NCBI RefSeq assembly: GCF_036322705.1
Contig: NZ_AP027270.1
Span: 1 to 64,000 of the forward strand
Length of the DNA: 64,000 bases
DNA from: Maricaulis maris
GTDB lineage: Bacteria; Pseudomonadota; Alphaproteobacteria; Caulobacterales; Maricaulaceae
Direction of reading: 5' to 3'
Positions within the stretch are counted from its first letter, which is position 1; each line of letters starts with the position of its first letter. A model generated the notes under the pieces. That model was given only the letters and a program-made list of their open reading frames with translations, did not search any database and was not told the origin of the DNA. A program made the position numbers and the translations under genes. This document shows positions 21,664-57,654 of the stretch, one piece after another.

Positions 21664-21711
21664 TGTTGGACGTCACAAGTCGTTGGACAAAGTCCAAGAA
21701 GCTTGGACAAA
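21664..21711 (+). repeat. left transposon end with tandem TnsB-type sites
   Basis: After the TGT terminus come two adjoining copies of a roughly 21-bp motif. At 21671-21691 it reads CGTCACAAGTC then GTTGGACAAA; at 21691-21711 it reads AGTCCAAGAAG then CTTGGACAAA. The shared core is GTCxxAAG-N3-4-TTGGACAAA. The same motif recurs in the right end. Bases 21712-21947 follow without a recognisable gene. Confidence 0.8.
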
Positions 21712-21947
21712 CCAAGCTGGAAAGCGTCGGGGTTCATGATCCAAGTGGATCGTTTGTGTGTTCAAAAGGGCCACGACAAGGTCGACAGCCCTGATCTGCT
21801 GTACGATCATTTGGCCGCATTGACTTCTTGCCAACACCTAGCATCCGCTTTGGCTTAGGAGGGGTCATAACCTGTCGGCTGAGTTCTGTATTCGGCGGAT
21901 GTCTGAATTGTCCGGTTCACCGCACAAAGCGCATGATGTGCCGTACT

Positions 21948-22199
21948 CTAACACCCAAGCCGACGAGCGCGGGGAGGCCACCCTGCTGCACAGCACGCAT
22001 CGCCCTCCTGAATAGGCGGGCACGGTACGGTTCCAAAGGAGCAGAAGACGCAGCAATCGCCCGGCTTCGGTTTCAGCAGCGTGCTGCATGACGGACAGTC
22101 CCAGAAGAACTGGCAGGCGTTCGTCGGCATCTCCAAGTCGGCGTGTACGCCGCTACAATGGGGACAGGTGAGGGTTGATTTGAGTTGGATATCAGCCAT
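21948..22199 (-). CDS. GDCCVxC-motif small metal-associated protein
   Basis: 83 residues. CPHC near residue 12, a second CPSC, and the signature GDCCVFCSFGTVPCPPIQ mark the GDCCVxC family, whose members often sit beside mercury-resistance genes and include selenoproteins; here all positions are plain Cys. The C-terminal tail of about 20 residues after CPPIQ is longer than I expect for the family. It is the last gene of a leftward merT unit, 6 bp after the preceding gene. Role probably metal binding or redox; not established. Confidence 0.8.
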   Translation of the reverse strand: MADIQLKSTLTCPHCSGVHADLEMPTNACQFFWDCPSCSTLLKPKPGDCCVFCSFGTVPCPPIQEGDACCAAGWPPRARRLGC

Positions 22200-22205
22200 C
22201 GGACT

Positions 22206-22730
22206 TTAAAGAACGCTCCCATTGATCAATTGCACCACCGGCCCGGGACATTCGTGATCGCGGGTTTTATGCCCTGCTATCCGGCCGATCAATATCGGTA
22301 TTGCGCGCATTTCGCAGCCGGGCGTTCCGAAGAGAGCAGCCAGGAAAAATGAACCACCAAGGCGGAGATAGACATAGATATTGAGCCAATAGGCGGTCGA
22401 CCATAGATGTGAATGGATCCAGTCGCCGGATGATCGCCAGCCGACAACCGCGGCGCCGATCAACAAGCCCGCTGCCAGCAGTCGAGGCCAAAACCCCAAC
22501 CGAAAACCCAGTCCAATGTTCAGCGTGTATGGGACCAAGTGGACAGCAAACGCCGTGAACCCGATCACCCATGCATTGGTCAAGGCATCCATCTCGCCGA
22601 AGCGAAACAATTGGGCCGCCCAATAGATTGCGCCTGCGCCGAAAATCAGGCGTGAGAGACGACCGATAGGCCCGGGCGGCGGAATCGTTCCTCCGTCGCG
22701 AAACTGATAGGTCGGCGAAGGTTTGGCCAT
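22206..22730 (-). CDS. multi-pass membrane protein of the merT unit, family not recognised
   Basis: 174 residues with about four hydrophobic segments and a C-terminal tail bearing Cys (TPGCEMRAIP and HECPGPVVQ). The start at 22730 (MAKPSPTYQF) lies one base after the merT stop. The longer frame to 22823 would lie inside merT. Position between merT and the GDCCVxC gene suggests a role in metal handling. No family assignment is possible from the sequence alone. Confidence 0.7.
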   Translation of the reverse strand: MAKPSPTYQFRDGGTIPPPGPIGRLSRLIFGAGAIYWAAQLFRFGEMDALTNAWVIGFTAFAVHLVPYTLNIGLGFRLGFWPRLLAAGLLIGAAVVGWRSSGDWIHSHLWSTAYWLNIYVYLRLGGSFFLAALFGTPGCEMRAIPILIGRIAGHKTRDHECPGPVVQLINGSVL

Positions 22731-22731
22731 A

Positions 22732-23094
22732 TCAAGCTCGGAGCCAGTCCAATAACCAGCTTTGCAATCGCATCTCGTAGTTCGGCAGGATGAGCGACAC
22801 GGCGAGAAATACCGCGCCAACAATCCACCATATCCAGAATATCCGGCCCGGGCTTCCGCGCCACAACGCCAGCGTCAGCGAGAACGCGAGCATGCCGGTC
22901 GCCCCCCAAGCGAACCAATCCTGCCAGCGTGCAAAGAAACCGAGCTTTGCAACCAAGCCGGAGGCGACACCAAGTTGAACAAGTAGGATCGGAACCACGC
23001 AGCAGGACGCGCCGACAAAAGCGAGAAAGCCGCTGACTGCCCCGCTGCCAGATACGAAGGATGAAGGGATAAGGTTTTTCTGGGTCGATCTCAT
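22732..23094 (-). CDS. merT: MerT-like mercuric ion transporter
   Basis: 120-residue inner-membrane protein with three or four hydrophobic segments. The paired cysteines GASCCVVPILLVQLG in the first helix correspond to the Hg(II)-accepting CC pair of MerT. MerT normally delivers Hg(II) to cytoplasmic MerA, but no merA or merP gene is present in the element. It is transcribed from a MerR-type promoter shared with the divergent regulator. Confidence 0.8.
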   Translation of the reverse strand: MRSTQKNLIPSSFVSGSGAVSGFLAFVGASCCVVPILLVQLGVASGLVAKLGFFARWQDWFAWGATGMLAFSLTLALWRGSPGRIFWIWWIVGAVFLAVSLILPNYEMRLQSWLLDWLRA

Positions 23095-23103
23095 AACTGC
23101 AGA

Positions 23104-23134
23104 ATGGTAGCCCCTGTAGTAACTACAGGATCAA
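23104..23134 (-). promoter_or_regulatory. MerR-type promoter/operator of the merT unit
   Basis: Read leftward: -35 TTGATC (23129-23134), a 19-bp spacer, and -10 TACCAT (23104-23109). The spacer contains the dyad CCTGTAG-TT-ACTACAGG (23113-23129). A 19-bp spacer with a central dyad is the hallmark of promoters untwisted by MerR-family activators. It lies between merT and the divergent merR. Confidence 0.8.
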
Positions 23135-23164
23135 GAGAAATTTGCATGGGGACTGGTTGACCCG

Positions 23165-23581
23165 ATGAAGGGACCGCTTAAACGAGGCGCCGTCGCGAAG
23201 CTGTTGGACAGCAACATCGAGACGATCCGATACTATGAGAGCATCGATCTGGTCGCCGCATCGGCGCGCTCCGACGCTGGCCACAGGCTGTTTTCGCAGG
23301 CGGACGTCGAGCGCCTGCGGTTTGCACTTCAGCTAAGACAGTTGGGATTTGCTCTCGCGGAAGTCAGGGAGCTTCTTACCATGACGGAGAAGCAGACCTT
23401 TTCCTGCAAACAGGTTGCAGGGATTGCCGAGATGCATCTGTCCCAAATCCATCGCAAGGTCGCCGATCTCAGGCAGCTCGCAGCGTCTCTGGAAGAGATC
23501 ACGAGCCAGTGCCAGCGCACAGACACGCCGGACTGTGCGCTCGTCCTGTCACTAAAGGCACCGAGCAAGACTCTAAACTAA
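23165..23581 (+). CDS. merR: MerR family regulator, probable mercury sensor
   Basis: 138 residues. The N-terminal HTH is VAKLLDSNIETIRYYESIDLV, then a coiled dimer helix. The metal ligands line up as Cys81, Cys116 and Cys124, equivalent to MerR Cys82/117/126 with one residue fewer in the final loop. The Cys near 81 points to a divalent-ion sensor rather than a CueR-type Cu(I) sensor. It is divergent from merT across the MerR-type promoter. Mercury specificity is inferred from context. Confidence 0.8.
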   Translation: MKGPLKRGAVAKLLDSNIETIRYYESIDLVAASARSDAGHRLFSQADVERLRFALQLRQLGFALAEVRELLTMTEKQTFSCKQVAGIAEMHLSQIHRKVADLRQLAASLEEITSQCQRTDTPDCALVLSLKAPSKTLN

Positions 23582-23627
23582 CGCCTGATGTAGAATTCGC
23601 GATCAGGATTCGAGGATCTACGCTCCG

Positions 23628-24182
23628 CTACCAATACCGACCGACCTTGCGCGCATACTGATCAAACGTATCTCCGAAGGTTCTGCGAATGTGCGGCTCC
23701 TCTACCCAAGTGATGAACACGTGGATGATCGCGATGAAGGCCAATGCGGAAAACAGTGCGAGTCCGGATCCGGCCGCGATGGCAGCACCGAGAAACATGC
23801 CGCTGTAGCCGACATACTGGGGATTGCGTGTGCGCTTATAGATACCGTGTTGGATCAACTCATCTTCGAGCAAGCCGTAAACCCGCTTCTGTGAACCATA
23901 GGCGTAGCGGCCAAGGAAAATGACGTAAGCGCCACCAAGGAAGAGCCCTCCCCCGATCGCCAGCGAGATCATGTTCGACGCGAACAAACTGCCACGATCG
24001 AGCCAGGCGAGAGCGATCGTGGCGAGGAAGTGCCCGTGCATGATGAGGCCCGAGAAGGCAGCGGTCAGCGGCGACCATTTACCTTGCTGTCGAAACTCAG
24101 ACCGCGCTCGAAACATGAATGGGATCGAGAGAGCGGCCGTTATGAGAACATAAGCGACGACACCGGTGAGCAAAGGGGACAT
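23628..24182 (-). CDS. isoprenylcysteine/phospholipid methyltransferase-like membrane protein
   Basis: 184 residues with about five hydrophobic segments. The C-terminal half has the ICMT/PEMT fold features IYKRTRNPQYVGYSGMFLG and the acidic EEPHIRRTFGDTFDQYARKVGRYW. Members methylate membrane substrates using S-adenosylmethionine and often travel with CDF/RND metal exporters. Its start overlaps the stop of the CDF gene, so they are co-transcribed. Confidence 0.8.
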   Translation of the reverse strand: MSPLLTGVVAYVLITAALSIPFMFRARSEFRQQGKWSPLTAAFSGLIMHGHFLATIALAWLDRGSLFASNMISLAIGGGLFLGGAYVIFLGRYAYGSQKRVYGLLEDELIQHGIYKRTRNPQYVGYSGMFLGAAIAAGSGLALFSALAFIAIIHVFITWVEEPHIRRTFGDTFDQYARKVGRYW

Positions 24183-24817
24183 TACGCTTCTCCTGTGTTG
24201 GCGACTGCTGCGTGGTCGCGAAGCTCTGAGAGAGCCTGCGAGCAGATGGACCAAGCCGAGCGGGTGAATATGCCGGCGAGCACAAACGCGAGAATGAGAT
24301 CCGGCCAGGCTGACCCTGTCAGGGCAACGAGGCCACCGGCGATCATGACGCCGACATTGCCGATAGCGTCATTACGAGAGCAAAGCCAAACCGAACGGAC
24401 GTTTGCGTCACCGTCTCTCCATTTGAGAAGGATCAGCACGCTGATAGCGTTGGCGAGTAGTGCCGCGAACCCGACAATGCCCATGGTCTCTGCGACTGGC
24501 GGCTCGCCAGAGAATGCGCGGAGCAGTGTCATGCTCAGCACGGCAATCGCGATCGCGAACAAAAGGCCACCTTTGAAGAGAGCGGCTTTGGCTCGAACCG
24601 CGAGAGCGGAGCCAATGACCAGAAGGCTGATTGTGTAGGTCATCGTATCGCCTGCGAAATCCAGGGCATCGGCTTTCAGCGATTGCGAACCTGAAGCGAA
24701 GCCTGCCGAGATTTCGACGACGAACATCACAAGATTGATAAAAATGACGGCCCACAGGGCGCGTCTGTACGCGACCGATGATCCATCGAACTTTTGGTCG
24801 CTTGGGCAACAACTCAT
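24182..24817 (-). CDS. CDF-family divalent cation exporter
   Basis: 211-residue inner-membrane protein with about six hydrophobic segments, beginning MSCCPSDQ. The membrane Asp site is in SLKADALDFAGDT, and a second is in CSRNDAIGNVGVM, matching the A-site aspartates of CDF transporters. It is shorter than CzcD, lacking the long His-rich loop and cytoplasmic domain. It is driven by a PbrR/ZntR-type promoter and divergent from its regulator. Likely Zn, Cd, Pb or Co; not resolved. Confidence 0.83.
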   Translation of the reverse strand: MSCCPSDQKFDGSSVAYRRALWAVIFINLVMFVVEISAGFASGSQSLKADALDFAGDTMTYTISLLVIGSALAVRAKAALFKGGLLFAIAIAVLSMTLLRAFSGEPPVAETMGIVGFAALLANAISVLILLKWRDGDANVRSVWLCSRNDAIGNVGVMIAGGLVALTGSAWPDLILAFVLAGIFTRSAWSICSQALSELRDHAAVANTGEA

Positions 24818-24843
24818 TTTCTTGACTCCTACGTTTAAGATGG

Positions 24844-24874
24844 AGTCTAATTTCTACAGCGACTGTAGAAGCAA
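24844..24874 (-). promoter_or_regulatory. MerR-type promoter of the CDF unit
   Basis: Read leftward: -35 TTGCTT (24869-24874), a 19-bp spacer, and -10 TAGACT (24844-24849). The dyad TTCTACAG-CGA-CTGTAGAA lies at 24852-24870. The same -10 hexamer and spacing recur at 26076-26106 before the czc operon. Confidence 0.8.
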
Positions 24875-24881
24875 GAGAAAA

Positions 24882-25328
24882 ATGCAAAAAGAATTCACCA
24901 TCGGCCAAGCGGCAGAAACGTCAGGCGTCAAAGTGACGACGATCCGGTATTACGAGAGCGTCGGCCTAATGCCAGAACCGAGGCGGGTTGAAAGCGGACG
25001 GCGCGTCTACGGGCAAGCCTCGGTGGACTTGCTCGGCTTTATCCGACATGCGCGTGATCTAGGTTTTACCGTCGAAGCCATTCGAGACCTGATCGATCTT
25101 CAGGAGAACCCTGGCACAGATTGTGCCAAGGCGGACGAACTTGCGCGGCATCATCTAGTTGAAACGCAAAAACGCATCGAGCAGCTTCGTGTGCTCGAAA
25201 GCGAACTTATGCGCATGATCGACGGCTGCGCCGGTGGCAAAGTCGGCTCTTGTGAAATCGTCACAAGCCTCTTCGATCACTCCAAATGCCTGTCGGATCA
25301 CAAATCAAAGGCTCTCAAAGAGCAATAG
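24882..25328 (+). CDS. MerR family regulator, PbrR/CadR/ZntR type
   Basis: 148 residues. The HTH is IGQAAETSGVKVTTIRYYESVGLM. The ligand pattern is Cys81, Cys116 and Cys124, with a further C-terminal His/Cys pair in DHSKC (Cys136). This is the divalent-ion (Pb/Cd/Zn) class. The start at 24882 follows AAGAGAAAA; the frame to 24735 would read through the promoter of the divergent CDF gene. It probably regulates the CDF unit and perhaps the czc operon. Confidence 0.83.
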   Translation: MQKEFTIGQAAETSGVKVTTIRYYESVGLMPEPRRVESGRRVYGQASVDLLGFIRHARDLGFTVEAIRDLIDLQENPGTDCAKADELARHHLVETQKRIEQLRVLESELMRMIDGCAGGKVGSCEIVTSLFDHSKCLSDHKSKALKEQ

Positions 25329-25332: not shown

Positions 25333-25866
25333 CTATTGCTCGCCGCCTTCCAAATTCTGAGACCCATTCCTCCATGCGATCAGTAACAGAACTACGCCAA
25401 TGAAGATAAGAATGTCGGCCAAATTGAATGTGGGCCAGCGGAGCGCCTGCCATCCAAAATCCAAATAATCTGTTACGGCTCCATCGCCAAGCCTATCGAT
25501 CGCATTTGCCAACCCGCCCGCCGCAAACAGAATGCCGGCGAAGTTGATGAGTTTGGAGCTTTGCCGTGCGGCCCAGCTCAATGCAAAAACAACCAAGACG
25601 ATGGCGAAACTTGAAAGCAGATAGGGCGCAACCCAATGCGAACTATCCAGGATTCCGAAGCTAACCCCCCGATTGCGGCCTAAGGTAAAGTTGAACCCAG
25701 GGAAGATCGGGATCGACGCGCCAACCTCGGTGAGAATTTGTTCAACTTTGAATTTCGCAAGAAGATCGGACGCGATCAGAATTGGCAACATTACCAGTTG
25801 GTCGCCGCGAATTTGGCTTAGGCTGGACGCGGTGCGATCAAGAAATTTCGACTTAAAAATTGACAT
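25333..25866 (-). CDS. lspA: LspA-like signal peptidase of a metal-resistance unit
   Basis: 177-residue membrane aspartyl protease-like protein. Signal peptidase II motifs are recognisable: NRGVSFGIL, GGLANAIDRLGDGAVTDYLDF and FNLADILIFIGV, with the two catalytic Asp in AIDR and NLAD. The substrate-facing N-terminus is divergent. Accessory LspA homologues (PbrC type) occur in lead/cadmium operons next to PbrR-type regulators, as here. It is convergent with the regulator gene, 4 bp apart. Confidence 0.82.
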   Translation of the reverse strand: MSIFKSKFLDRTASSLSQIRGDQLVMLPILIASDLLAKFKVEQILTEVGASIPIFPGFNFTLGRNRGVSFGILDSSHWVAPYLLSSFAIVLVVFALSWAARQSSKLINFAGILFAAGGLANAIDRLGDGAVTDYLDFGWQALRWPTFNLADILIFIGVVLLLIAWRNGSQNLEGGEQ

Positions 25867-26536: not shown

Positions 26537-27847
26537 ATGTATTCAGACAAATCTCCCCGGCCGAATTGGCCGGGTCGAGGGGTTGCAGGCATGGCTTGCA
26601 GCGCTCTCATCGCGTCCGCGGTGCTGGCACAGCCGGTCTCGCAGAATGGTCCGCTTGAACTCTCCTCGGCCCTGCAACGCGCCGTACATTCCAACCCGCA
26701 TATCGCTTCGTTGCGCGCTGAGGTGACCGCCCGACACGGCGACGCCCTTCAAGCTGGGCTGTGGGACAATCCCTCCTTCGAGGCAGAACTCGAAGGCTTT
26801 GGCGGTGATCGCGGCGGTATAGGAGATGGCGACCTCACCGTCGCCGTGCGCCAGACCATCCCGCTGGGCGGCGACCGTCGCCGCGCCCGTGAGGCGGCCG
26901 AGGCCTGGGCCGGTGTCGAGACAGCAAGGCTGAACGCCGAGATTGCCGGCCTTCTGGGCGAAGCGGCCACGGCATTCGTAGACGCCCGTGCCGCCCAGGA
27001 AACCGCCCGCGTCAGGGCGGAGCTCCAGGATCTCGCGGAAGCTGCCGCTTCGGCCATACGCCAGCGCGTCGAGGCGGGGCGGTCCTCGCCGATCAATCTC
27101 GACCGGGCCGATATTCTGGCCGCCACGGCCGGCATCGAGGCGGCATCGGCGTTGACCGAGGCGCGGCGTGCAGGTCTTGCGCTGGCCGCGATGTGGGGCG
27201 GCGCGGCGGCGGGCGAGGTCGCGCCCCCGTCCGTGCTTGTGAACAACCCGGAACTGTCGGCACTGACGCCGGAGGCGATGATGCGGCGCAATCCGGATCT
27301 GGCGGTGGCCCAGCAGACATCCCGGGCACGAAGCGAAGAGATTGCCAGGGAACGGGCCGAAGCCATCCCGGATATCACGGTCGGTGCCGGGATTAGGCGC
27401 TATGGCAGCGATAGCGAGACGGCGTATCTCGCCATGGTCGAAATGCCGATCCCGGTGATCGACCGGAATCAGGGCGCGATCGCCGCAGCCGCGGCGCGCG
27501 AGACCGGGGCCCGACTGGACGAGGAGGCTCTGCGGCGGCAATTGCTGGCGCGACATGCAGCCGCCTACCGTCGGTGGAGCGACGCGCAGCAGCGTTATGC
27601 AGCATTGAGCGGACACGTGCTGCCTGCCGCTGAGAACGCCTTCTCCCGTACCAGTCTCGCCTATCGCGAGGGCGCGCTGCAGCTTCTCGATCTGCTGGAC
27701 GTCCAGCGCACTTACTTCGACACACGCATCCAGGCGATTGAGGCCCGGGCAGAACTCGCTCGCTCGGCCATCGAACTTGACGTGCTCTTCGGAGCACCTC
27801 GCCTGAAACAGCTCGCCGGCGTTGCCGGCGCGGAGGCAAACCCATGA
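26537..27847 (+). CDS. czcC: CzcC-type outer-membrane efflux channel
   Basis: TolC-family outer-membrane factor, 436 residues, with an N-terminal signal segment and two repeated long helical/strand regions (LSSALQRAVHSNPHIASLRAEV and YREGALQLLDLLDVQRTYFDTR). It forms the exit duct of the CzcCBA pump. The stop overlaps the czcB start. The first 16 residues before MACSALIASAV are basic, so the true start may lie slightly downstream. Confidence 0.87.
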   Translation: MYSDKSPRPNWPGRGVAGMACSALIASAVLAQPVSQNGPLELSSALQRAVHSNPHIASLRAEVTARHGDALQAGLWDNPSFEAELEGFGGDRGGIGDGDLTVAVRQTIPLGGDRRRAREAAEAWAGVETARLNAEIAGLLGEAATAFVDARAAQETARVRAELQDLAEAAASAIRQRVEAGRSSPINLDRADILAATAGIEAASALTEARRAGLALAAMWGGAAAGEVAPPSVLVNNPELSALTPEAMMRRNPDLAVAQQTSRARSEEIARERAEAIPDITVGAGIRRYGSDSETAYLAMVEMPIPVIDRNQGAIAAAAARETGARLDEEALRRQLLARHAAAYRRWSDAQQRYAALSGHVLPAAENAFSRTSLAYREGALQLLDLLDVQRTYFDTRIQAIEARAELARSAIELDVLFGAPRLKQLAGVAGAEANP

Positions 27848-29076
27848 CAATGACCAGAACACTGCTCGCCGGCACGGCGGCATTTTCCCTCCTGGCTGCT
27901 TGTTCGGGCCCGCCCGCTCAAGTGTCCGCGCACGAGGCTCCAGTAGGCGCAGATGCCCATGACAACGCGACTGACACCGGGCATGCAGAGGACAATCACG
28001 CCGATGAAGTCGGAATCATAGAGCTGTCCGACGACGATATCGCCGCGCTCGGCATTACGGTTGACGCGGTCGATTCTGGCCCCGTGGATGGCGAGGTGGA
28101 ATTGCCCGCCGAGGTCAGGTTTGACCAAACGCGTCTGGCCCATGTCTCGCCGCGGGTATCCGGTATCGTTCATGCCGTCCATGTCACCGAGGGTGACGCG
28201 GTCGAAACCGGCCAGCTCCTCGCCGTGCTCGACAGTCGCGCCCTGGCGGACGCCAAGGCCGGATACCTGTCCGCCCTGGCCCGCCTCGACCTCAACCAAT
28301 CGCGGTTCGAGCGCGAGAGGCGGCTGTGGGAGCAGCAGATTTCGGCGGAACAGGATTTCCTCGACGCCCGCCAGGCGTTGGAGGAATCGCGCATCGAGGT
28401 GCGCAGCGCCCGCCAGCAATTGGAGGCGCTGGGCGTTGACGAGGCGGCGCGCGCCACCCTTGCCTCGGGAACCGATCAGCCCCTGACACGCTACGCGCTC
28501 GCGGCACCGATCTCCGGAATCGTCATCGAGCGCCACGCCGTGCTGGGCGAGGTGATCGAGGAAGGCGCGCAGCCGCCGGCCTTTATCATTGCCGATACGT
28601 CCACGGTCTGGGTCGATGCGGCCATCTACGGTGCCGATCTCGACCAGCTGCGGGCCGGAAGTCCCGTCCGGATCGATCCGGGCGACGGCGGCCCCGAAAT
28701 CGTCAGCGAGATCGCCTTCGTCAGCCCCCAGCTCGGCGAAAGCACTCGCACGGGCCGGGCACGGATCGTGCTCGACAATGCCGGCGAGCGCTTGCGTCCG
28801 GGCATGTTCGTCACGGTTCACGCCGAGGCGCTCGCCGCCCGAGCCAGCACCCGTGTGCCGGCCAGTGCGCTGCAGACGATCGACGGCGCCGATGCGGTCT
28901 TCGTACGTACCGATCACGGTTTCGAAGTTCGTCCGGTCCGCATCGGACGGCGCTCTGACCGCTTTGCGGAAATCCTCGCAGGGGTCGAGCCGGGCGAACG
29001 TATCGCAACCGCCGGCGCCTTCGCTCTGAAATCGGAACTGCAAAAAGGGGAGTTCGAAGATGGACACGCCCACTGA
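27844..29076 (+). CDS. czcB: CzcB-type periplasmic adaptor (membrane fusion protein)
   Basis: 410 residues. A lipoprotein-like signal with AAC lipobox near residue 20, then a His/Asp-rich stretch (EAPVGADAHDNATDTGHAED), then the lipoyl/hairpin core VSPRVSGIVHAVHVTEGDAVETGQ and a beta-barrel region. It links the RND permease to the outer-membrane channel. It overlaps both neighbours (4 bp with czcC, 17 bp with czcA), giving one translationally coupled operon. Confidence 0.88.
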   Translation: MTMTRTLLAGTAAFSLLAACSGPPAQVSAHEAPVGADAHDNATDTGHAEDNHADEVGIIELSDDDIAALGITVDAVDSGPVDGEVELPAEVRFDQTRLAHVSPRVSGIVHAVHVTEGDAVETGQLLAVLDSRALADAKAGYLSALARLDLNQSRFERERRLWEQQISAEQDFLDARQALEESRIEVRSARQQLEALGVDEAARATLASGTDQPLTRYALAAPISGIVIERHAVLGEVIEEGAQPPAFIIADTSTVWVDAAIYGADLDQLRAGSPVRIDPGDGGPEIVSEIAFVSPQLGESTRTGRARIVLDNAGERLRPGMFVTVHAEALAARASTRVPASALQTIDGADAVFVRTDHGFEVRPVRIGRRSDRFAEILAGVEPGERIATAGAFALKSELQKGEFEDGHAH

Positions 29077-41940: not shown

Positions 41941-41966
41941 CGGGAAATCCAAAGGAGGACTGCCCG

Positions 41967-45137: not shown

Positions 45138-45166
45138 CCCGAATTCGAGACCCTCAAAGGAGATTG

Positions 45167-45613: not shown

Positions 45614-45625
45614 CGGAGGGCTTTG

Positions 45626-45931: not shown

Positions 45932-46362
45932 TCTGGCGCGCAGGCGTTACAGCGGCAATCTTGGGGCTTCTGGGCGGACTGGCAGGCGTGTGGCTGGGCG
46001 CTCAGCTAGGCAATCGTTCCGATACCGTGACGGTCAGCCTTCACGCCGTGATTCACGGCCAGCTCCATTTGACCCGCGATCAGGAAGCGGAAATCGAGGC
46101 CTTGGAGGCGGATTTTGCTCGCGAAAAATCTGCCTTCGACCAACGACTGGCAGAGGCCCGGCACGCGATCGGCACGTCCTTGATGGAAAGTCGGGAAATG
46201 TCACCGGAAGTCGTCGAGGCTGCAGAGGCCCTTCATGATGTGATGGGCGAATTGCAGCTGTCCACGCTCAATCACATCCTCGCCATGCGCGCCGTGATGG
46301 ACGTCGAGCAGCGCGAAATATTCGATGCGCGCCTGGCGGCGGCCCTTGATGCCGAACGCTGA
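45928..46362 (+). CDS. CnrX/CpxP-like periplasmic metal sensor
   Basis: 144 residues, GTG start. One N-terminal membrane anchor is followed by an all-helical hairpin domain (HGQLHLTRDQEAEIEALEADFAREK and VMDVEQREIFDARLAAAL) like CnrX and Spy/CpxP-type heavy-metal resistance proteins. His residues in VSLHAVIHGQLHL could bind metal. It overlaps both its neighbours, so the three products are made together. Confidence 0.75.
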   Translation: MIWRAGVTAAILGLLGGLAGVWLGAQLGNRSDTVTVSLHAVIHGQLHLTRDQEAEIEALEADFAREKSAFDQRLAEARHAIGTSLMESREMSPEVVEAAEALHDVMGELQLSTLNHILAMRAVMDVEQREIFDARLAAALDAER

Positions 46363-46918: not shown

Positions 46919-46975
46919 CCCGATGGGCTGCGTACGGGACGTTCTGATTGCTCGCAGATCGCCCCGGAGGCCCCC

Positions 46976-47698: not shown

Positions 47699-47776
47699 GC
47701 AGATCGTCGGCTTGAGGGATGCGCGCGTCCTCCGCGTATTCTGGCAAGGGCCGATGGAGGGACTGACATCGCAGGT

Positions 47777-48853
47777 TTGATAACGATCGGGACGGCATTC
47801 GCGGGTCGCGACAATCGGCTCACGCCGATCCGTCTGGTGTTGGCGGCTGCCGTGCTTGCTGAACATGCAATTATCGTTACGCAGGGGCCCACGTTGCCGC
47901 CCCCATTGGTCATCAATGGCTGGTCGCTCAGTTATGCGGCGGTAAATGCTTTTTTCGTCCTGAGCGGTTTTCTGATCGCCGACAGTCTCGAGCGTCGATC
48001 CAATCCATTCCAGTTCGCCGCGGCGCGCATGCTTCGGATCTGGCCAGCGTTGCTCGCTCTTTCGCTTCTGGCCGTCCTGGCCATTGGTCCAGTTGTAACA
48101 GACCTGAGCGCCGCATCTTATTTCGGCTCATTGCAGACGTTGAGCTTTCCCGTCCAAGTACTTGGCTTTCTTGATACGAGCCAGGGCCCCGCAGGCATCT
48201 TCTCGGACAATCCTTGGGCGGGCGAGTTCTCGGCGACTCTCTGGACCTTGCGCTATGAGGTGCTGGCCTATGCTGGTGCTGCGCTGATTTTCTTCTCTCC
48301 GCTGCCTTGGGGGCGGGGCGCTAAACTTTTCCTTTTTGTCGGAGTGACCGCCGCTTATTTGGTCGTCCGGTCCTTCTGGTCCGATGCGCCGGCCATGATC
48401 GAGAGCGGCCTGCGTCTGGCGTCGGCGTTCACTCTGGGCATGCTGGTTCATGTTTGGCGTGAAAAGATTCCGGTTCTTCCTTGGCCGACCCTAATTGTAT
48501 TGCCGGTCTGGATTGCGTTGGGCAGTCATCCCTTGGCAGAGGTATTTCTCAACCTCACACTGGCGTCCATATTGTTTGCGGTCGCCTTTGCAGGGCTGGG
48601 GCGCTGGCCGACCGGCGCCCGCCTGCCCGACTGGTCCTATGGTATTTATATCTGGCATTATCCGGTCATGCAGGTGGTGCTGTACTGGTATCCAGCGGCG
48701 GACCCGCTGGAGGTCGCCATTTATTCAATTCCCGTTACGCTTTTGATTTCCGCCGCGTCCTGGTCCTGGATCGAGAAGCCCAGCTTGGCGGGCAAGGCTG
48801 GATTGGGCCGCTGGTTGGAGCTGGCTTTCAAGGGGATGCGGCCATCCCCCTGA
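47777..48853 (+). CDS. acyltransferase 3 family membrane protein (OafA-like)
   Basis: 358 residues with about ten hydrophobic segments. Family motifs are the conserved His in VLAEHAIIV, NAFFVLSGFLIADSL, and LPDWSYGIYIWHYPVMQ. Members O-acetylate surface polysaccharides. The start is TTG at 47777 preceded by a weak ribosome-binding site; a later start is possible. Its role in a metal island is unclear; envelope modification is one option. Confidence 0.8.
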   Translation: MITIGTAFAGRDNRLTPIRLVLAAAVLAEHAIIVTQGPTLPPPLVINGWSLSYAAVNAFFVLSGFLIADSLERRSNPFQFAAARMLRIWPALLALSLLAVLAIGPVVTDLSAASYFGSLQTLSFPVQVLGFLDTSQGPAGIFSDNPWAGEFSATLWTLRYEVLAYAGAALIFFSPLPWGRGAKLFLFVGVTAAYLVVRSFWSDAPAMIESGLRLASAFTLGMLVHVWREKIPVLPWPTLIVLPVWIALGSHPLAEVFLNLTLASILFAVAFAGLGRWPTGARLPDWSYGIYIWHYPVMQVVLYWYPAADPLEVAIYSIPVTLLISAASWSWIEKPSLAGKAGLGRWLELAFKGMRPSP

Positions 48854-50710: not shown

Positions 50711-51265
50711 TCAGGCGTCGAGAGCTTTGATCAGAAAGAGTGGATGATCAGCTTGATCAGCGACCCAGTCGCCGAGTGCGATCAAATTTAACTGTCGCAT
50801 CGCGATCACTTCATCGAGCTCGTTTGCTCCCGGCACGTTCTTGTTGAGCTCTGGCGGGCCGTTGTCCGCCCAAGTAATTGAGATAACTTGCTGAGTGTCG
50901 CCGAGACCGCTCACGCCCCGTGCGATATGGTCGTGCTCGGAATATTGCGCGAAAAACTCGGCCACTGCTGAGCGTGTCCCCTCTACTTTCAGTGTCGAAG
51001 GCGAGTTGATAATAGCAGCGTATAATACGCTCGCCGCTGTTGCTTGGCCCAGCTGCTCACTTTCGCGCGGCGGAAAGCCAAGTGACGAAGCCCAAGCGCG
51101 GACCGCGAGAGCCGCGACGGACCTTGTCCTCATTTTTCCACGCGTGCCATCGCTCGGACCTAGGTGCCCTCGGTGTCGCCAGTTCCGTTGACCGTCCATT
51201 GCCAAGCTCGTCATTTCCGCAACTCGCTTAGGTCCGTGTAATGTCTCTTCAATTTCGAACTTCAT
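50711..51265 (-). CDS. hypothetical protein divergent from tnsA
   Basis: 184 residues from ATG 51265 (MKFEIEETLHGPKRVAEMTS); the longer frame from 51304 lacks support. No family recognised. Mixed helical composition, no signal peptide, no Cys cluster; segments such as AVAEFFAQYSEHDHIARGV and ELDEVIAMRQLNLIALGDWV look like a folded cytoplasmic protein. It shares its upstream region, with the inverted repeat at 51318-51347, with tnsA. A regulator or accessory of transposition is possible but unproved. Confidence 0.55.
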   Translation of the reverse strand: MKFEIEETLHGPKRVAEMTSLAMDGQRNWRHRGHLGPSDGTRGKMRTRSVAALAVRAWASSLGFPPRESEQLGQATAASVLYAAIINSPSTLKVEGTRSAVAEFFAQYSEHDHIARGVSGLGDTQQVISITWADNGPPELNKNVPGANELDEVIAMRQLNLIALGDWVADQADHPLFLIKALDA

Positions 51266-51317
51266 TGCAGCTCTTGTCCTTGCCCAGCCGCGAGCATTAA
51301 CCATAGACTAAAAAAAT

Positions 51318-51369: not shown

Positions 51370-52131
51370 ATGGTCATGACCGATAAAGCCACATTCGCGC
51401 CGCGGGGAAGCCGCGCTTCAAAATTTCGCCAGCTCGGACTCTATCAAGGCGCGGAGCCCACGAGAACTTGGAAGCCCGGAAAGGTTTGGGTCGCACGCGA
51501 CGGGATTTTCGCCAAAACTCCCAAATGCCTGAATTCATACGCGCCGTTTGAAAGCCACCTCGAAAGCTTAGGCCACCTCCTTCTTTCGGTAGACCCTCGC
51601 ATTCAATACTATGTCTGCCAGCCGAATCCGCTCCTCTATTGGATGGAAAGCAATAATAGCGGGCGAGTTAGGCGTGAATACACACCTGATTTCATCGCTT
51701 TGAATAAAGACGAACGCCTTTTTGCTATTGACACGAAGGCAAGCTACTTCGCTGAAGCGGACCAATGGGTGTCGCGAGTAGCCGCTATTCGCCAAGCATA
51801 TCGTTTTGATCACGGCGTTGAATTGCTCGTCTGGACGGAGCGCGACCTTTACGCAGAGCCCAGGCTGTCAAACGCGCGGACGATGTACCGCCACCGGCAT
51901 GCACCGCAGGATCCGTCGAGTGAATACACGGTGCGACGTACGCTTGAAGCACACGGCGGCGTCTCAAGCATCGGCCAACGCTGCGAAGAAGCATCAATCG
52001 AAGCGCGTTGTCAGATGGCCGGGGCCTTTGGCTCGGTAATGCGCTTGGGCCTTGCCGGCGAGGTCGTACTCGCTTCAGGCGCAAAGTATGGGCGCAACAC
52101 TGAAGTGCGGTTCAATGAGGCCGCTGAATGA
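51370..52131 (+). CDS. tnsA: TnsA endonuclease
   Basis: 253 residues. TnsA cuts the 5' strands of the element so that it moves by cut-and-paste. The restriction-enzyme-like active site is visible: E61 (FESHLE), D107 (YTPDF) and D121-x-K123 (AIDTKAS), against E63, D114 and Q130-x-K132 of Tn7 TnsA. The ending (about 190-253) would be the part that meets DNA and TnsC. ATGA overlap with tnsB. Confidence 0.9.
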   Translation: MVMTDKATFAPRGSRASKFRQLGLYQGAEPTRTWKPGKVWVARDGIFAKTPKCLNSYAPFESHLESLGHLLLSVDPRIQYYVCQPNPLLYWMESNNSGRVRREYTPDFIALNKDERLFAIDTKASYFAEADQWVSRVAAIRQAYRFDHGVELLVWTERDLYAEPRLSNARTMYRHRHAPQDPSSEYTVRRTLEAHGGVSSIGQRCEEASIEARCQMAGAFGSVMRLGLAGEVVLASGAKYGRNTEVRFNEAAE

Positions 52132-54332
52132 CCAGTTCTCACCTCAAATCAGTCGAGGTTCCACATGGCAATCTCTATCCCCGGCTGAGACTTGTTGTCG
52201 GCGATAGTGTTTGGATTAACGGTGAGGAGCACTTTGTCCAAAAGCGCCAACGCGACAAGTGGATACTTATTCACCTCGAGACACAAGAATTGCTGATCGA
52301 AACCGATCTTCGGTTGGTCGACCTCTATGGCTCTGGGAAACTTAAATACCGATCCCGATCATCTATGTGCCCACCCCTTTCTCCGATGGCACCGCACCTG
52401 GAAGACCCACACGCGCGAGCCGCCGCGGCGCTCAAACATGACTACGTGAAATATGTGATGCAGCATCCGACCGGATTTCGAACAAGCCGGAAGTGGCTCA
52501 AGGATCGGATCGCCGAGAAAGCCCTTGAACGCGGTGAGGAAACCTCGCCCTCGCCTACCTCGGTGCTCAACTGGAAGCGCTTGCACGACGCCCATTTCCA
52601 AGAAATCGGCCTCGCCGCTTACGCTCCGCGTCATGACCTGAAGGGAAAAAGGGGCTCAAGGCTCCCCGAAGCGAAAAAGGTCGCGCTTGATCGCGCTGTC
52701 GACCGGTACCTTCAGGGCGGTTCGATAAAAGATGCTCACCTCGAGGCACTGAGCTACATCTCTGACGTCAACCGCTCGGCGGAAGGCAAGAAATATAGCG
52801 AGTCCGCTCCGCTCAAACACCTCGACGAGAAAGGACTTCTGACGCCGCCGAGCCTGTCGACGCTTGAGCGCGAGATTCGCAGGAAGGTGTCGCCTTTCGT
52901 GAAACAGGCGGGACGTATCGGCACATACTATGCGCGTAAGAATTGCCAGAGCTACCAGACGCGTGGGTTGCCTGATCGCCCTTACGGCGAGGTTGAGGTC
53001 GATTTTACGCCTGTGGATCTCATTCTCGTCGACGACAACCGCGTCATTCTCGGACGTCCTTACCTTATCGCGTTTCTGGACCGCGCCACCCGCATGGTTG
53101 TCGGGTTTTCGATCTCGTTCGACGTCCCGGGCTACGCTTCCGTTCTAGACGGTCTGCGCAATGCAATCTTTCAGAAGCGCATTGACCATATCGATGGCCT
53201 CAATGACGAAGACTGGCCTTGTATGGGCCGGATTGAGAATCTCTACATCGACAACGGAAGAGAGTTTGCCAACGGTCACCTCTTGGCCGCTGCTGCGGAC
53301 CTGGGCTTCAATCTCATTCGCCTTCCCCCGCGTGAACCCTGGCACAAGGGCCTTGTCGAACGCTTCATGCGCGAAGTGGCGCGCTTTAGCCACCGCTTCC
53401 CCGGCACGACCCACTCTAACGCGGTTCAGCACCGCGATTACGAGGAGCCGGAGGCGCCTGTTTTGACGCTGTCAGAGTTTCGTGATCTCGCGACCAAATG
53501 GATCGTCACGGACTACAATCGGCGGCCGAACCGGGGACTCGGCAGGGCGCCGGGGGTTCCAAGGGCACCGATCGACGCGTGGCGAGACAAGCTGGACCTT
53601 CTCGACAGCCCGAGCCTTCCCAGCGAGGAGCTCTTCATCGCGCTCGCTGGGCAGACCGCCGAGCGTACGGTCCAGAAGTACGGCGTTGAATGGGATCATA
53701 TCAGGTACTGGTCGCCTGACCTGGATCGCATTCTCGCCCATCCCGATCACAGAGGTCAGTCGTCCAAGGCTTGTTCAGCCAAGTACCACGTCCGCCGCGA
53801 TCCCTACGATGTCTCTAAGGTGTACCTCTACAACCATCACGCCAAAGAGGTCATCGAGCTTCCGGTCGTCGACAAGTGGCGGAAGTACACCAAGGGGCTC
53901 TCTGTTTTCCAGCACCGGCTTTGCCGCGAGCACGAGCTGATGCGGGAGGAACACCGCAGCGACCCGGAAGCGCTCTGGAAGGCTAGGGCGGCCCTGATAA
54001 ATGCAGGGATGGGTGCCCTCCGGTCGGGCCGCCGCAAGCAACTCGAACGCAAGCTCACCCGCTATCTCTACGGCAACCGTGCCCATCCGGGCGTAAGCGA
54101 GCTCGTATTCGAGGATCAGTGTGGAGGCGAAGCAGATCTCATACCCCTGACCGCAGTCCACGAAGAGCCTGTGCTTGTGACCTCGGATCCGACCACCGGT
54201 TTGGAAACGCCTTCTACCGGCGAAACCCAAATTTCCAAGATCGAAATCAACTCGGCTGCCGGGAGCGACGACATGGACGAGATCCTCATGCTCGCCGCGC
54301 AAGTCAATTCAGGGAGTAGAAGTGATGCGTGA
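52128..54332 (+). CDS. tnsB: TnsB DDE transposase
   Basis: 734 residues. It binds the end repeats and joins the 3' ends to target DNA. N-terminal DNA-binding domains (about 1-270) lead to an RNase H-like core with the catalytic triad D292 (VEVDFTPVD), D375 (YIDNGREF) and E411 (KGLVERF); D375 and E411 are separated by 35 residues as expected for the D,D(35)E class. A C-terminal beta-barrel and tail follow. The first 14 codons overlap nothing but the tnsA stop; its end overlaps tnsC. Confidence 0.93.
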   Translation: MTSSHLKSVEVPHGNLYPRLRLVVGDSVWINGEEHFVQKRQRDKWILIHLETQELLIETDLRLVDLYGSGKLKYRSRSSMCPPLSPMAPHLEDPHARAAAALKHDYVKYVMQHPTGFRTSRKWLKDRIAEKALERGEETSPSPTSVLNWKRLHDAHFQEIGLAAYAPRHDLKGKRGSRLPEAKKVALDRAVDRYLQGGSIKDAHLEALSYISDVNRSAEGKKYSESAPLKHLDEKGLLTPPSLSTLEREIRRKVSPFVKQAGRIGTYYARKNCQSYQTRGLPDRPYGEVEVDFTPVDLILVDDNRVILGRPYLIAFLDRATRMVVGFSISFDVPGYASVLDGLRNAIFQKRIDHIDGLNDEDWPCMGRIENLYIDNGREFANGHLLAAAADLGFNLIRLPPREPWHKGLVERFMREVARFSHRFPGTTHSNAVQHRDYEEPEAPVLTLSEFRDLATKWIVTDYNRRPNRGLGRAPGVPRAPIDAWRDKLDLLDSPSLPSEELFIALAGQTAERTVQKYGVEWDHIRYWSPDLDRILAHPDHRGQSSKACSAKYHVRRDPYDVSKVYLYNHHAKEVIELPVVDKWRKYTKGLSVFQHRLCREHELMREEHRSDPEALWKARAALINAGMGALRSGRRKQLERKLTRYLYGNRAHPGVSELVFEDQCGGEADLIPLTAVHEEPVLVTSDPTTGLETPSTGETQISKIEINSAAGSDDMDEILMLAAQVNSGSRSDA

Positions 54333-55227
54333 CTTCAAGGAACGGCTGCCGGCGGATCGTCAGAGGCAGATGACAAACATCTTCGTTGACCATGCCAACC
54401 ATCAGCAAGCAACGAAGGCCATTAGGCGATTCTTCAAACCCGTCGAAGGTGGAGTGCCGGGTCGGGGCAATATCTGTGCGCTGATCGGCGAAAGCCGGAC
54501 CGGTAAGACTTACGGCGCATCTGAAGTTCTGGCGGAATACAAGCCGGAGATCGGAGCAGATGGGATTAAGCGCAGCGTTTTGCTGGTCGATTCTCCCATC
54601 GAGGGCGGAGCTCGCGCAGTGCTGGACAGCATCGCCAGCGGACTTGGCATGCAGGTCTCGCTGCGGATGACTAACTCCAACTTAATCCTGGCGATCCTGC
54701 GGGAACTCCAACGGTCGGAAGTTCAGTTTGTCATCTTTGATGAGGCTCAGGAGCTCTTCCCTGAGAAGAACAGGAAGGTGCTTAGTTTTTCGCGCAAACT
54801 GCTGCGCAAGATGCTCAACCTCAATCAGTTCAACATCCTTTGCATCGGACTGCCGGAGACTTATTCGATCCTCGCAGAGGATTCTCAGCTCATCGGGCGC
54901 GGCGGCCTGCCTTACAAGCGGCTGCGTCCCTACGACTGGACGGACCCCGTAGACTGCCAGCATTTTCGGGTCCTTTGTCACAAGTTCGACGAGGAAATGC
55001 CGTTCGAGCTCTCTGATTTTGCCTCAATGGATTTTTCGAGCCGACTCTTCAAAGCGACAAAAGGATGTATCGGCATCCTCAAGGTCTACATGATCGCCGC
55101 GGGCGAAATCGCGCTCGAAGCCGGTTCGGATAGGCTGGAACTCTGCCATTTCGCGGAGGCATACGACAATCGCAAGCGCCCCAATGAGGTTTTCAATCCA
55201 TTCCGCAACGACCCGTCGCTCTCATGA
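54325..55227 (+). CDS. tnsC: TnsC/TniB AAA+ ATPase
   Basis: 300 residues, short compared with Tn7 TnsC (555) and closer to TniB size. Walker A is GESRTGKT (55-62), Walker B is FVIFDEAQ with D139-E140, and LPETYSIL follows as the sensor region. It links target selector TniQ to the TnsAB transposase. A GTG at 54322 is an equal alternative start; AGGGAG lies 5-8 bases upstream. The start lies inside tnsB and the stop overlaps tniQ. Confidence 0.9.
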   Translation: MRDFKERLPADRQRQMTNIFVDHANHQQATKAIRRFFKPVEGGVPGRGNICALIGESRTGKTYGASEVLAEYKPEIGADGIKRSVLLVDSPIEGGARAVLDSIASGLGMQVSLRMTNSNLILAILRELQRSEVQFVIFDEAQELFPEKNRKVLSFSRKLLRKMLNLNQFNILCIGLPETYSILAEDSQLIGRGGLPYKRLRPYDWTDPVDCQHFRVLCHKFDEEMPFELSDFASMDFSSRLFKATKGCIGILKVYMIAAGEIALEAGSDRLELCHFAEAYDNRKRPNEVFNPFRNDPSLS

Positions 55228-57452
55228 CCGCGGCAATGGAAGGAAATAAGATGGTCAGTGCCCATCAAGACGTAGTGGATATCGCTAGGCTTCCCATGTC
55301 GAACTGGCCGGGTGAGGTCTATCCGCACGAGCCCGTTTACGGATTTTTGCAGCGGGCAGCGACCGCCAACTACGCGTTCAGTACCGAGGCCTTTCTGCTC
55401 TCGCTAGGCCTGAACGGACTAGACTGGGATTTCGACGAGCAGTTGGAGGTTGTGAACCAACTCCCCATCTACGGTAGCGACGAACTCGCCTGGAACACGC
55501 CCAGGCGCACGACTCAAGGCTATGAAATCTGCGGTCATCTGCTCCCCAGTCGGACGTTCTCGAAGGGTCGACGCCGGGTCTGCCCGCTCTGCCTGGAGGA
55601 AGAGCGCTATATCCGGATTTGGTTCGACATCGTGCCGGTGGCCGCATGCCCCATCCATGACGTGAGGCTGATCGAGGGACTCGACGGCGACCCGATTGAT
55701 TGGCGGTACCCGGAGGCCGGCTGGACCCAGCGGGGTGTAATGATTGGCCAAGACCACGCCATACCCTACCCCGCCACCGCGTTGGATCGTCACGTCTTCA
55801 ACAAGGTAACGGGGGTGGAGACGGCAGAGCCTTCTCACTTTGCTGGACAGTCCTTGCATTCCGTTCTCCGGGCTGCGGTCGTCCTGACCAAGCTCCACCG
55901 AGGGATAGAATCGCCTTCGCACACACCATGTGAGCTCCGAAATTTGGCGCAGTTCAGTTTTCCGTCACTGCTTGCGGGCCGAGACGCAATCGTGAAATTT
56001 CTCGCGGAGGCTAAGTGGCTGCAGCCTGATTCCGATCAGACTCGCTATCACTCGCGCTGCCACTACGCCCCGCAGCTCACTCGCACCATTCCAACGGAAG
56101 GCTTGCGTACGCTGGTCAGCGATTGCTTTGGCGAAGTTCGGGTTCGTAGTGGTCTTGCTACTCCCTCCGGCAGGCTGTCTCAACATGACGGCGCGGACGG
56201 GGCCTGGACTTTGGAATCAGTCGCTACTGACTTGAAGCTCGAAAGCAAATATCTGCGCAAGATTTTGGAGGCGGCGGCGGTTCCGACTCAGCGATGCGCT
56301 CACACACGGGCTTATCGCCTCAGTAGTGACAACATCGATGCTGTCAGGCGCTATATTGCCACCGCTTTATCTTTGGAGCACGTCGCGGCGGAGCTGGGCT
56401 GCACAATTGATGAGGTCGACGAGCTGGTCAGCAGGGGGACCCTCAAAATGGACTTCCGGTGTGATGGGCAGCGCTATTTCCAGGAAGACGCGATCAAAGC
56501 CTTTATCGCCCGGGCGCACCAGGGGCGGCGCGAGGGCTTCGACCCCAAGGGAATGCCTCTCGCGTCGTTTGCCGCTAAAGTCGGCATCTCGCTCCCCGCA
56601 GCCTATTCACAGCTCATTCGGAATAATACCATTGGCCTGATCGATTATGATCAAGATGCGCCGTTCTTCCATGGTGCGAGGGTCGCCTATTTCCAAAAGA
56701 CACGCCTTCGGCCCGGTGCCCAGATCAAGAACGCAATCACGTTCGCGAAAGCAAAGGCACGTCTCGGAACGGAAACTGACGGTTTGGCCCAGCTGGTTGA
56801 GCTTTCTTACCTGAAGATTGTCGAGGATGAATCTGGCCGATCACGGATTTGCGAGGCGTCTCTCGATGCATTCGAGGACGCCTACGCCAGGGCGGCTGAT
56901 TATGCCCCGTTGTTGAGATGCTCTGCGCGGAGCGCGCTCAAGTTGCTCAGAAAAAAAGGCGTGGAGCCGATCAACGAGTATGGGAAACGTGTAGTTTGTT
57001 TCGTCTCTCGGGAACAGGTTCACAGTCTTGTGGGCATTAGGCTAGAGAGTCGCACCGGCTTCCAAGCCCTTGAGGTACTGCGCGATGAACTTACCGAGAA
57101 GTTCGCATCGGCATCGGTGCCTGGAACAGCTCGCGTGATTACTGATCCTGCGATTGTAGTGGAGGCGACATCGCGGAATTGGTCATTCAAAGTTACCCGC
57201 AAGCCGACACTTGATCGCTATGACCTTGTGGCATTGTTCAGGTCTGTCAATGAGGGCGGCCGTTTGCGGAAGATCCTCGCTGCTGCTGTTGAGCCTGAGA
57301 AGATCTGGCCTGGAGCCGAAGTGCGGCGGGAACCTGGTGGCGGCTTCGTACTCGTTGATGGTGTTGGATTCGGTGTTTCGCCGGAGTCTGAAACCTCTCA
57401 TCTCGTCGACCGAATTGTGGGTCGTGCGCACGAACTTCACCGCTACCTCTAA
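55224..57452 (+). CDS. tniQ: TniQ/TnsD-type target-selection protein
   Basis: 742 residues, much larger than the compact TniQ of Tn5053 or CRISPR-linked elements and similar in build to TnsD-like proteins. The N-terminal TniQ domain (about 20-200) has zinc ligands C120-PLC123 and C142-PIH145. The long remainder holds several helix-turn-helix-like segments, e.g. EHVAAELGCTIDEVDELVS, LASFAAKVGISLPAAYSQLI and PLLRCSARSALKLLRKKG. It probably recognises the tRNA-Arg gene. Ends 202 bp before the right terminus. Confidence 0.9.
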   Translation: MTAAMEGNKMVSAHQDVVDIARLPMSNWPGEVYPHEPVYGFLQRAATANYAFSTEAFLLSLGLNGLDWDFDEQLEVVNQLPIYGSDELAWNTPRRTTQGYEICGHLLPSRTFSKGRRRVCPLCLEEERYIRIWFDIVPVAACPIHDVRLIEGLDGDPIDWRYPEAGWTQRGVMIGQDHAIPYPATALDRHVFNKVTGVETAEPSHFAGQSLHSVLRAAVVLTKLHRGIESPSHTPCELRNLAQFSFPSLLAGRDAIVKFLAEAKWLQPDSDQTRYHSRCHYAPQLTRTIPTEGLRTLVSDCFGEVRVRSGLATPSGRLSQHDGADGAWTLESVATDLKLESKYLRKILEAAAVPTQRCAHTRAYRLSSDNIDAVRRYIATALSLEHVAAELGCTIDEVDELVSRGTLKMDFRCDGQRYFQEDAIKAFIARAHQGRREGFDPKGMPLASFAAKVGISLPAAYSQLIRNNTIGLIDYDQDAPFFHGARVAYFQKTRLRPGAQIKNAITFAKAKARLGTETDGLAQLVELSYLKIVEDESGRSRICEASLDAFEDAYARAADYAPLLRCSARSALKLLRKKGVEPINEYGKRVVCFVSREQVHSLVGIRLESRTGFQALEVLRDELTEKFASASVPGTARVITDPAIVVEATSRNWSFKVTRKPTLDRYDLVALFRSVNEGGRLRKILAAAVEPEKIWPGAEVRREPGGGFVLVDGVGFGVSPESETSHLVDRIVGRAHELHRYL

Positions 57453-57476
57453 TCGATACAGCCAAATCGTCTAAGG

Positions 57477-57505
57477 GCCGCCCCCAACTGGGGCGGCGCT
57501 TTTTT
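57477..57505 (+). terminator. rho-independent terminator of the tns operon
   Basis: The arms GCCGCCCC (57477-57484) and GGGGCGGC (57490-57497) with a 5-nt loop are followed by GC and TTTTTT. It closes the tnsABC-tniQ operon inside the right end. Confidence 0.88.
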
Positions 57506-57548
57506 GCCCGATGAGAGGAAGATCCAACTTGTTCTGCTGAATGAGACG

Positions 57549-57654
57549 TTTTGTCCAAACTGATTTGACGTTTGGTCTAGCCAAATTGGACGCACGCTTC
57601 GGCTAAGATATTGAATGTACTTGCGCAACGTCCAACGACTTGTGACGTCCAACA
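57549..57654 (-). repeat. right transposon end with spaced TnsB-type sites
   Basis: Read inward from 57654: the terminal 25 bp equal the left end exactly, with one site at 57629-57647. After a 36-bp gap two abutting sites follow at 57571-57592 (CGTCCAATTTG then GCTAGACCAAA) and 57549-57570 (CGTCAAATCAG then TTTGGACAAAA). The arrangement is looser than in the left end. Confidence 0.78.

Follow-up and report, generated by a model that had tools for sequence, protein, structure and literature searches.

A 36-kb Tn7-like element with predicted metal-efflux cargo behind a tRNA-Arg(CCG) gene in Maricaulis maris

In Tn7 the selector protein TnsD binds DNA of glmS, and the transposon inserts at a distance of about 25 bp (PMC2918618). 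In CyCAST, type I-D and I-B2 CRISPR-associated transposons (CASTs) and related tRNA-homing elements, a selector of the TnsD type guides the element to a position downstream of a tRNA gene (PMC10293859 and PMC11406308). Here we describe a 35,991-bp unit at positions 21664–57654 of Maricaulis maris NZ_AP027270.1, in a window of 64,000 nucleotides (the whole stretch of DNA analysed). It resembles these systems and is very probably a complete Tn7-like transposon of Maricaulis, most likely aimed by its TniQ to a site behind tRNA-Arg(CCG) and moved by cut-and-paste. Because tRNA-adjacent insertion and metal cargo are both already known for Tn7-like elements (PMC8649781 and PMC11406308), it is an example of a known Tn7-like type and not a new type. 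The initial annotation of this DNA knew of no description of the element. That holds for Maricaulis in the open-access literature, where no paper pairs "Tn7-like" with "Maricaulis" and a search for Maricaulis transposon and copper gave only a Caulobacter genome paper; it does not hold for elements of this kind, which have been described.

Like Tn7, compared here through the copy on plasmid R721, the element has TnsA, TnsB, TnsC and a TniQ-domain selector, TGT ends, a 5-bp duplication and a safe site behind a conserved gene. Its TnsB is 28% identical to that of R721 over 213 aa, TnsE was not recognised, and TniQ is 742 aa long. The tns operon lies at the right end and points outward, with the tRNA at the opposite end, whereas in R721 the start of tnsA is ~130 bp from the right end and the gene is directed into the element. 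The CAST branch to which CyCAST belongs has a fused tnsA-tnsB and CyCAST inserts in a TnsD-dependent manner 30–33 nt after the tRNA (PMC10293859), whereas the present element has separate tnsA and tnsB, no cas gene or second TniQ that we could find, and an insertion point 5 bp downstream of the tRNA. Type I-F3 CASTs (Aeromonas pAsmA, Vibrio pTHAF190c) also have separate TnsA and TnsB, and their TnsBs are 28% identical to ours over 495–563 aa; unlike them, the element has a long TniQ and no cas genes were found. By sequence, the best PDB match of TnsB is PseTnsAB, which we take to come from a type I-F3 CAST. A Pfam search of 30 open reading frames (ORFs) of the element brought up neither TnsE nor a cas gene nor a second TniQ; PADLOC, run on 10 ORFs, likewise gave no cas gene (array repeats were not searched for), its matches being confined to the tns/TniQ models of CASTs and a weak mads hit. 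Tn402/Tn5053 transposons, which make a 5-bp duplication, carry a resolvase gene and lack TnsA, share the TniA/TniB/TniQ logic (R751). The element differs from them in having TnsA, no resolvase was found in the 30 ORFs scanned, and its TnsB falls outside the Tn402 TniA group in a tree with a weak backbone. A Burkholderia Tn7-like element with metal-resistance cargo reportedly exists, a likeness by description only. A copper Tn7-like element of Pseudomonas syringae, cited in PMC8649781, is likewise alike by description only.

The ends of the element and its insertion site comprise the following features.

21582–21658, + strand: tRNA-Arg (anticodon CCG) with an encoded CCA at its end (ARAGORN, Rfam RF00005)
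21659–21663: left target-site duplication, TTTCT (single copy in three empty sites)
21664–21688, + strand: left terminal inverted repeat, perfect 25 bp (sequence reading, mismatch scan)
21664–21708: left end array, TTGGA/TCCAA at 3, 20, 30 (inverted) and 40, closely spaced (motif scan)
57553–57654: right end array, TTGGA/TCCAA-type at 3, 20, 65 (inverted), 79 (inverted) and 97 from the outer end, spaced (motif scan)
57630–57654, − strand: right terminal inverted repeat, perfect 25 bp (sequence reading, mismatch scan)
57655–57659: right target-site duplication, TTTCT (sequence reading)

Positions 21664–21688 are the exact reverse complement of 57630–57654, with TGT and ACA termini, and TTTCT stands directly outside both, as the initial annotation had reported. 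The window has 223 TGT/ACA pairs with an equal flanking 5-mer and a spacing of 2 kb or more. Of these, the element's ends alone match with 0 mismatches in 25; the best of the other 222 has 8, and the best pair in 200 windows shuffled in 2-base blocks has 7. The perfect ends and the duplication are far beyond chance. In the genome itself (3.14 Mb, one contig), end matches occur at these two places only and TnsB is present once. The window alone shows ATTTCTT (7 bp) on both sides, a longer string than the 5-bp duplication. We read the duplication as 5 bp because the ends are symmetrical and because of a copy in a second genome (G016) and the empty sites described below: the empty sites place the A in the tRNA CCA and G016 rules out the last T, which leaves 5 bp if the ends are symmetrical. 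The internal end motifs noted earlier are real and asymmetric. TTGG(A/T) or (A/T)CCAA occurs within the first 130 bp at positions 3, 20, 30, 40, 48 and 77 of the left end and at 3, 20, 65, 79 and 97 of the right end, against a window average of ~0.4 per 130 bp. The TTGGA/TCCAA motifs of these arrays are probably TnsB sites.

Four predicted transposition genes occupy the right end.

51370–52131, + strand: tnsA, 253 aa, E65/D107/K123 (NCBIfam NF033179 below threshold; alignment with Tn7 TnsA)
52128–54332, + strand: tnsB transposase, 734 aa, D292/D375/E411 (Pfam Mu-transpos_C; PDB TnsB matches; tree; residue alignment)
54322–55227, + strand: tnsC AAA+ regulator, 301 aa (Pfam TniB, AAA_22)
55224–57452, + strand: tniQ, TnsD-like target selector, 742 aa (Pfam TniQ; homologues)

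The four overlap head to tail, in agreement with the initial annotation, the operon holds no other gene, and the last ends 202 bp short of the right end. In an alignment with Tn7 of plasmid R721, TnsB D292/D375/E411 fall on D273/D361/E396, and in a seven-sequence alignment TnsA E65, D107 and K123 fall on E63, D114 and K132; we take these Tn7 residues to be the catalytic ones. The catalytic residues first assigned to TnsB thus stand, as do D107 and K123 of TnsA, while E61 of TnsA aligns with a Leu and should be replaced by E65. TnsC matches TniB with E 1.4e-14 (Pfam), and the Walker-type motifs claimed for it can be read in the translation as GESRTGKT and VIFDEAQ. The proposed zinc ligands of TniQ are likewise readable as CxxC...CxxH; its Pfam TniQ domain spans residues 32–149 with 43.1 bits (cut-off 27). 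Five helix-turn-helix (HTH) repeats had been suspected in the long TniQ C-terminus, an idea dropped when one of the five matched HTH_17, below the cut-off. A 197-aa ORF facing away from tnsA (50711–51304) has no Pfam, NCBIfam, PADLOC or PHROGs match at the thresholds used and may not be a gene.

Of 19 Maricaulis genomes, the window's included, three contain a 24-base pattern of the ends when as many as 3 mismatches are allowed, and these are the three that carry tns genes; 16 are without it. TnsB is present at 100% identity in M. maris DSM 4734 (G018) and in the Maricaulis metagenome-assembled genome Biocath_Alpha_04 (G016). The G016 copy is 35,992 bp long, 99.2% identical end to end, and flanked on both sides by TTTTT, directly after the tRNA-Arg CCA. 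The G018 copy lies on two contigs, 98.5% identical over ~3,100 bp and 99.5% over 32,626 bp, with duplication TTTCT. All three copies have the 5-bp duplication and TGT/ACA ends. The element is ~99% identical between genomes, while identity is 79–81% in the left flank and ~72% in the gene of the right flank: it has spread recently between Maricaulis species. Because the duplication is TTTTT in G016 and TTTCT in the window, at least two separate insertions have occurred at the same base, and the 36 kb has moved as a unit more than once, which bears out the proposal in the initial annotation that it moved as one piece.

Three empty sites were read among the 16 genomes without the element, chosen for their best-matching left flanks. 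In G015 the CCA is followed by TTTTTCTTAT, in G014 by TTTCCTTGAT and in G006 by TTTCTTCGAT, each with a single copy of the 5 bp; the G006 flanks lie on two contigs that overlap in the tRNA. The empty site and the further copies with the same ends that the initial annotation had looked to as checks were therefore both found. The two outcomes it had named as contrary, ends without tns genes and an empty site that speaks against the duplication, were seen in none of the 19 genomes and none of the three sites.

The differences between copies are concentrated in window positions 21664–23600 and 37700–45700, with up to 4% in a kb against 0–1% elsewhere, which suggests recombination with unsampled variants of the element. 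G018 also carries a ~54-kb island (L088–L091, G018:C9:35051-88747) that encodes TrbI and VirB4/TrbE-like conjugation proteins and splits the native tRNA-Arg(CCG), with an 18-bp repeat left; some ~130 bp into the island lies an intact tRNA-Arg(CCG) gene of its own, which differs from the native one.

Two diverged relatives extend the comparison. In G105, from another genus of the Maricaulis family, a 37,614-bp element starts 4 bp after the CCA of tRNA-Arg(CCG); its TnsB is 49% and its TniQ 36% identical to ours, its tnsB frame is broken, and its left end has 5 mismatches in 25 to the known ends (next best place 7). In Erythrobacter crassostrea (Sphingomonadales), a 25,911-bp element starts 5 bp after the CCA of tRNA-Thr(TGT), with TnsA 56%, TnsB 59% and TniQ 41% identical. 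Its right end is a candidate: a mismatch scan gave 7 in 25, the runner-up having 9, and the motif pattern lends support. In G984, a related genome, the empty site shows 79% synteny up to CCA-TTTCT, the Erythrobacter insertion point, and synteny resumes at 81% ~1.3 kb past the right end; one of 40 other genomes of the genus matched the right-end region, in short pieces only. Left-end motifs lie at 3, 20, 30 and 40 in G105, as in the window, and at 30 and 40 only in Erythrobacter; across the three elements right-end motifs recur at 20, around 65–79 and at 97. A tRNA-Leu ~200 bp after the Erythrobacter tniQ was considered as a target and ruled out by the left end behind tRNA-Thr and the right end beyond tRNA-Leu; given these ends it probably lies inside the element. 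This tRNA-Leu(CAG) (L026:15469-15555) is 96% like another copy in the same genome.

In a tree of 36 TnsB proteins (27 loci and nine others: the window, Erythrobacter and seven plasmid-borne; all passed a 380-aa filter, and L017–L023, L125, L126, L130 and hits giving no locus were left out), the TnsBs of the window, G105 and Erythrobacter form one clade (100/100). Four sequences from the family of Erythrobacter join this clade in a supported group of seven (99/96). Tn402 TniA and the two type I-F3 CAST TnsBs are placed elsewhere, support for the deep branches is low (59/20), and Tn7 TnsB sits on a long branch of uncertain position. Within the genomes and plasmids sampled, the element's own branch is rare. 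Among 385 genomes of the class, TniQ (E limit 1e-6) had matches in two more, at 26–36% identity; across 396 further family members, no match of Erythrobacter TnsB exceeded 35%, and 19 matched at E 1e-20 or better; none of 4,611 plasmid records reached 60%, with 23–29% among the matches listed; and no relative came up in IMG/VR, scanned with TnsC and with an alignment of TnsBs.

The element starts 5 bp after the CCA of tRNA-Arg(CCG) in all three Maricaulis genomes, although in G018 only the 3' part of the tRNA adjoins it, and the insertion leaves the tRNA whole. Across the five insertions examined, both relatives included, the left end faces the tRNA, 4–5 bp after the CCA (in G018, after the tRNA 3' part), in the same orientation as in the window. 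This fits a remark in PMC11406308 that the end with overlapping sites appears nearest the recognised sequence. We infer that tRNA-Arg(CCG) is the attachment site. In the mechanism we propose, TniQ, a TnsD-type selector, would bind the tRNA-Arg(CCG) gene in its 3' half, and TnsC would be recruited to tRNA-bound TniQ and set the spacing. TnsB on the asymmetric end arrays, together with TnsA, would excise the element and insert it at a point 5 bp past the CCA with its left end facing the tRNA, and repair of the 5-nt gaps would produce the target duplication. Recognition of the tRNA gene by TniQ, with the spacing set by TnsC, appears likeliest by analogy with the precedents of Tn7 and CyCAST. If the ~25-bp offset also applies to this element, the bases read by TniQ would be those of the T-arm to anticodon side; the G018 element, as arranged today, adjoins just 45 bases from the 3' end of the tRNA, which fits such a reading. 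Cut-and-paste is favoured because TnsA has aligned active-site residues. Within this scheme, recognition of the tRNA gene by TniQ, a cut-and-paste mode of movement and continued mobility are inferred; the last of these is plausible from the four open genes and the aligned catalytic residues.

Several observations weigh against the element being such a transposon. In G018 the two ends fall on separate contigs, which between them lack 266 bp of the element. The TnsA match to NCBIfam NF033179 (E 5.8e-7) is under the family cut-off, a sequence search with TnsA found no TnsA in the PDB, and AlphaFold models of TnsA (mean predicted confidence, pLDDT, 41.8) and TniQ (40.6), made from two-sequence alignments, were too poor and were unused for fold searches. 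The duplication is not clean in either distant relative: G105 shares ATTCTT, with symmetrical-end 5-mers shifted by one base, and Erythrobacter has CTTTC outside the right end against TTTCT at the left, so the duplication is tested on near-identical copies only. More distant TnsB relatives had no tRNA in the 20–80 kb read in six of six genomes (G596, G651, G885 and G942, 80 kb each; G873, 60 kb; G779, 20 kb), and the sole end pair passing the scan there, in G651, has 8 mismatches in 24.

Among other explanations, the one that survives best, though we consider it unlikely, accepts a real Tn7-like unit but gives the targeting to a host factor or to the T-rich run downstream of the tRNA, with TniQ only bridging. 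T-rich bases do follow the CCA in all five insertions, the single HTH match in the TniQ C-terminus is sub-threshold, and TniQs 36% identical share tRNA-Arg while one ~40% identical uses tRNA-Thr. Set against this, Tn7 TnsD binds its site directly (PMC2918618) and tRNA homing of CyCAST requires its TnsD (PMC10293859), and the tns operon has no further gene. An old insertion inherited vertically in Maricaulis, with no repeated transposition, would agree with the shared site in all three species that carry the element, and is very improbable in view of the ~99% identity of the element against 72–81% for the flanks, the absence of the ends from 16 of the 19 genomes and the differing duplications. 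An integrase-type genomic island with the tns genes as passengers is the least probable of all: tRNA 3' ends are common sites for such islands and the G018 conjugation island occupies the same tRNA-Arg, but the inverted ends and the 5-bp duplication recur with different 5-mers (TTTTT/TTTCT), which is not a product of site-specific recombination, and no tyrosine or serine recombinase was matched in the 30 element ORFs (a few smaller ORFs lie outside that scan), the sole integrase-core match being the DDE domain of TnsB.

Between the left end and the tns genes of the transposon as we read it lies the cargo, assigned by family matches.

22732–23094, − strand: ORF with a weak, sub-threshold MerT match (Pfam)
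23165–23581, + strand: MerR regulator (Pfam)
24182–24817, − strand: cation-efflux family protein (Pfam)
24735–25328, + strand: MerR-like ORF (judged by eye, outside the Pfam scan)
25333–25866, − strand: signal peptidase II family protein (Pfam)
26537–32197, + strand: Czc-type resistance-nodulation-division (RND) efflux operon, with OEP 26537–27847, HlyD-type adaptor 27844–29076 and CusA/CzcA-family pump 29060–32197 (Pfam; TIGR00914 1061 bits)
33519–34850, + strand: amino acid permease (Pfam)
35391–41511, + strand: Cus-type RND efflux operon, with OEP, adaptor with CusF domains 36638–38356 and CusA/CzcA-family pump 38299–41511 (Pfam; TIGR00914 1249 bits)
41508–44327, + strand: MerR-family regulator and CopA-type copper P-ATPase (Pfam; TIGR01511 584.5 bits)
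44367–48853, + strand: DUF2231, SnoaL-like, Metal_resist, extracytoplasmic function (ECF) sigma factor, PepSY_TM and acyltransferase (Pfam)

By these assignments the element brings predicted copper/silver-type and zinc/cobalt/cadmium-type efflux genes. A scan of ten larger ORFs of the relatives, nine of them inside the elements, gave other contents: polysaccharide-synthesis genes with GlmS-like (SIS and GATase) and phosphomannomutase-type (possibly GlmM) enzymes in G105, and DndB-like and helicase proteins in Erythrobacter. The G105 GlmS-like gene is at L105:8196-10022 and the phosphomannomutase-family gene at 11672–13069; glmS is the classic attachment gene of Tn7. On the far side of the window element, 57655–57872 belongs to a ~220-bp repeat family scattered through Maricaulis genomes, with a tRNA-Arg gene within ~150 bp at six of six loci checked.

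Tentatively, the elements of the window, G105 and Erythrobacter might form a distinct alphaproteobacterial Tn7-like subfamily with a single selector, inserting 4–5 bp from the CCA, in which specificity has switched between tRNA-Arg and tRNA-Thr with ends, spacing and orientation fixed. With one homing selector only, such elements would travel between species on elements using the same tRNA, such as the M. maris conjugative island. The Maricaulis copies constitute a natural experiment, with a 36-kb unit at the same base in three related species, two duplications and empty sites alongside, and the two diverged relatives carry different cargo on the same transposition machinery. Related selectors on different tRNAs make target change of a TnsD-type protein directly testable, and the short distance from tRNA to insertion bears on how spacing is set. 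The element also represents one route by which a Czc/Cus/CopA metal-resistance set spreads among marine alphaproteobacteria.

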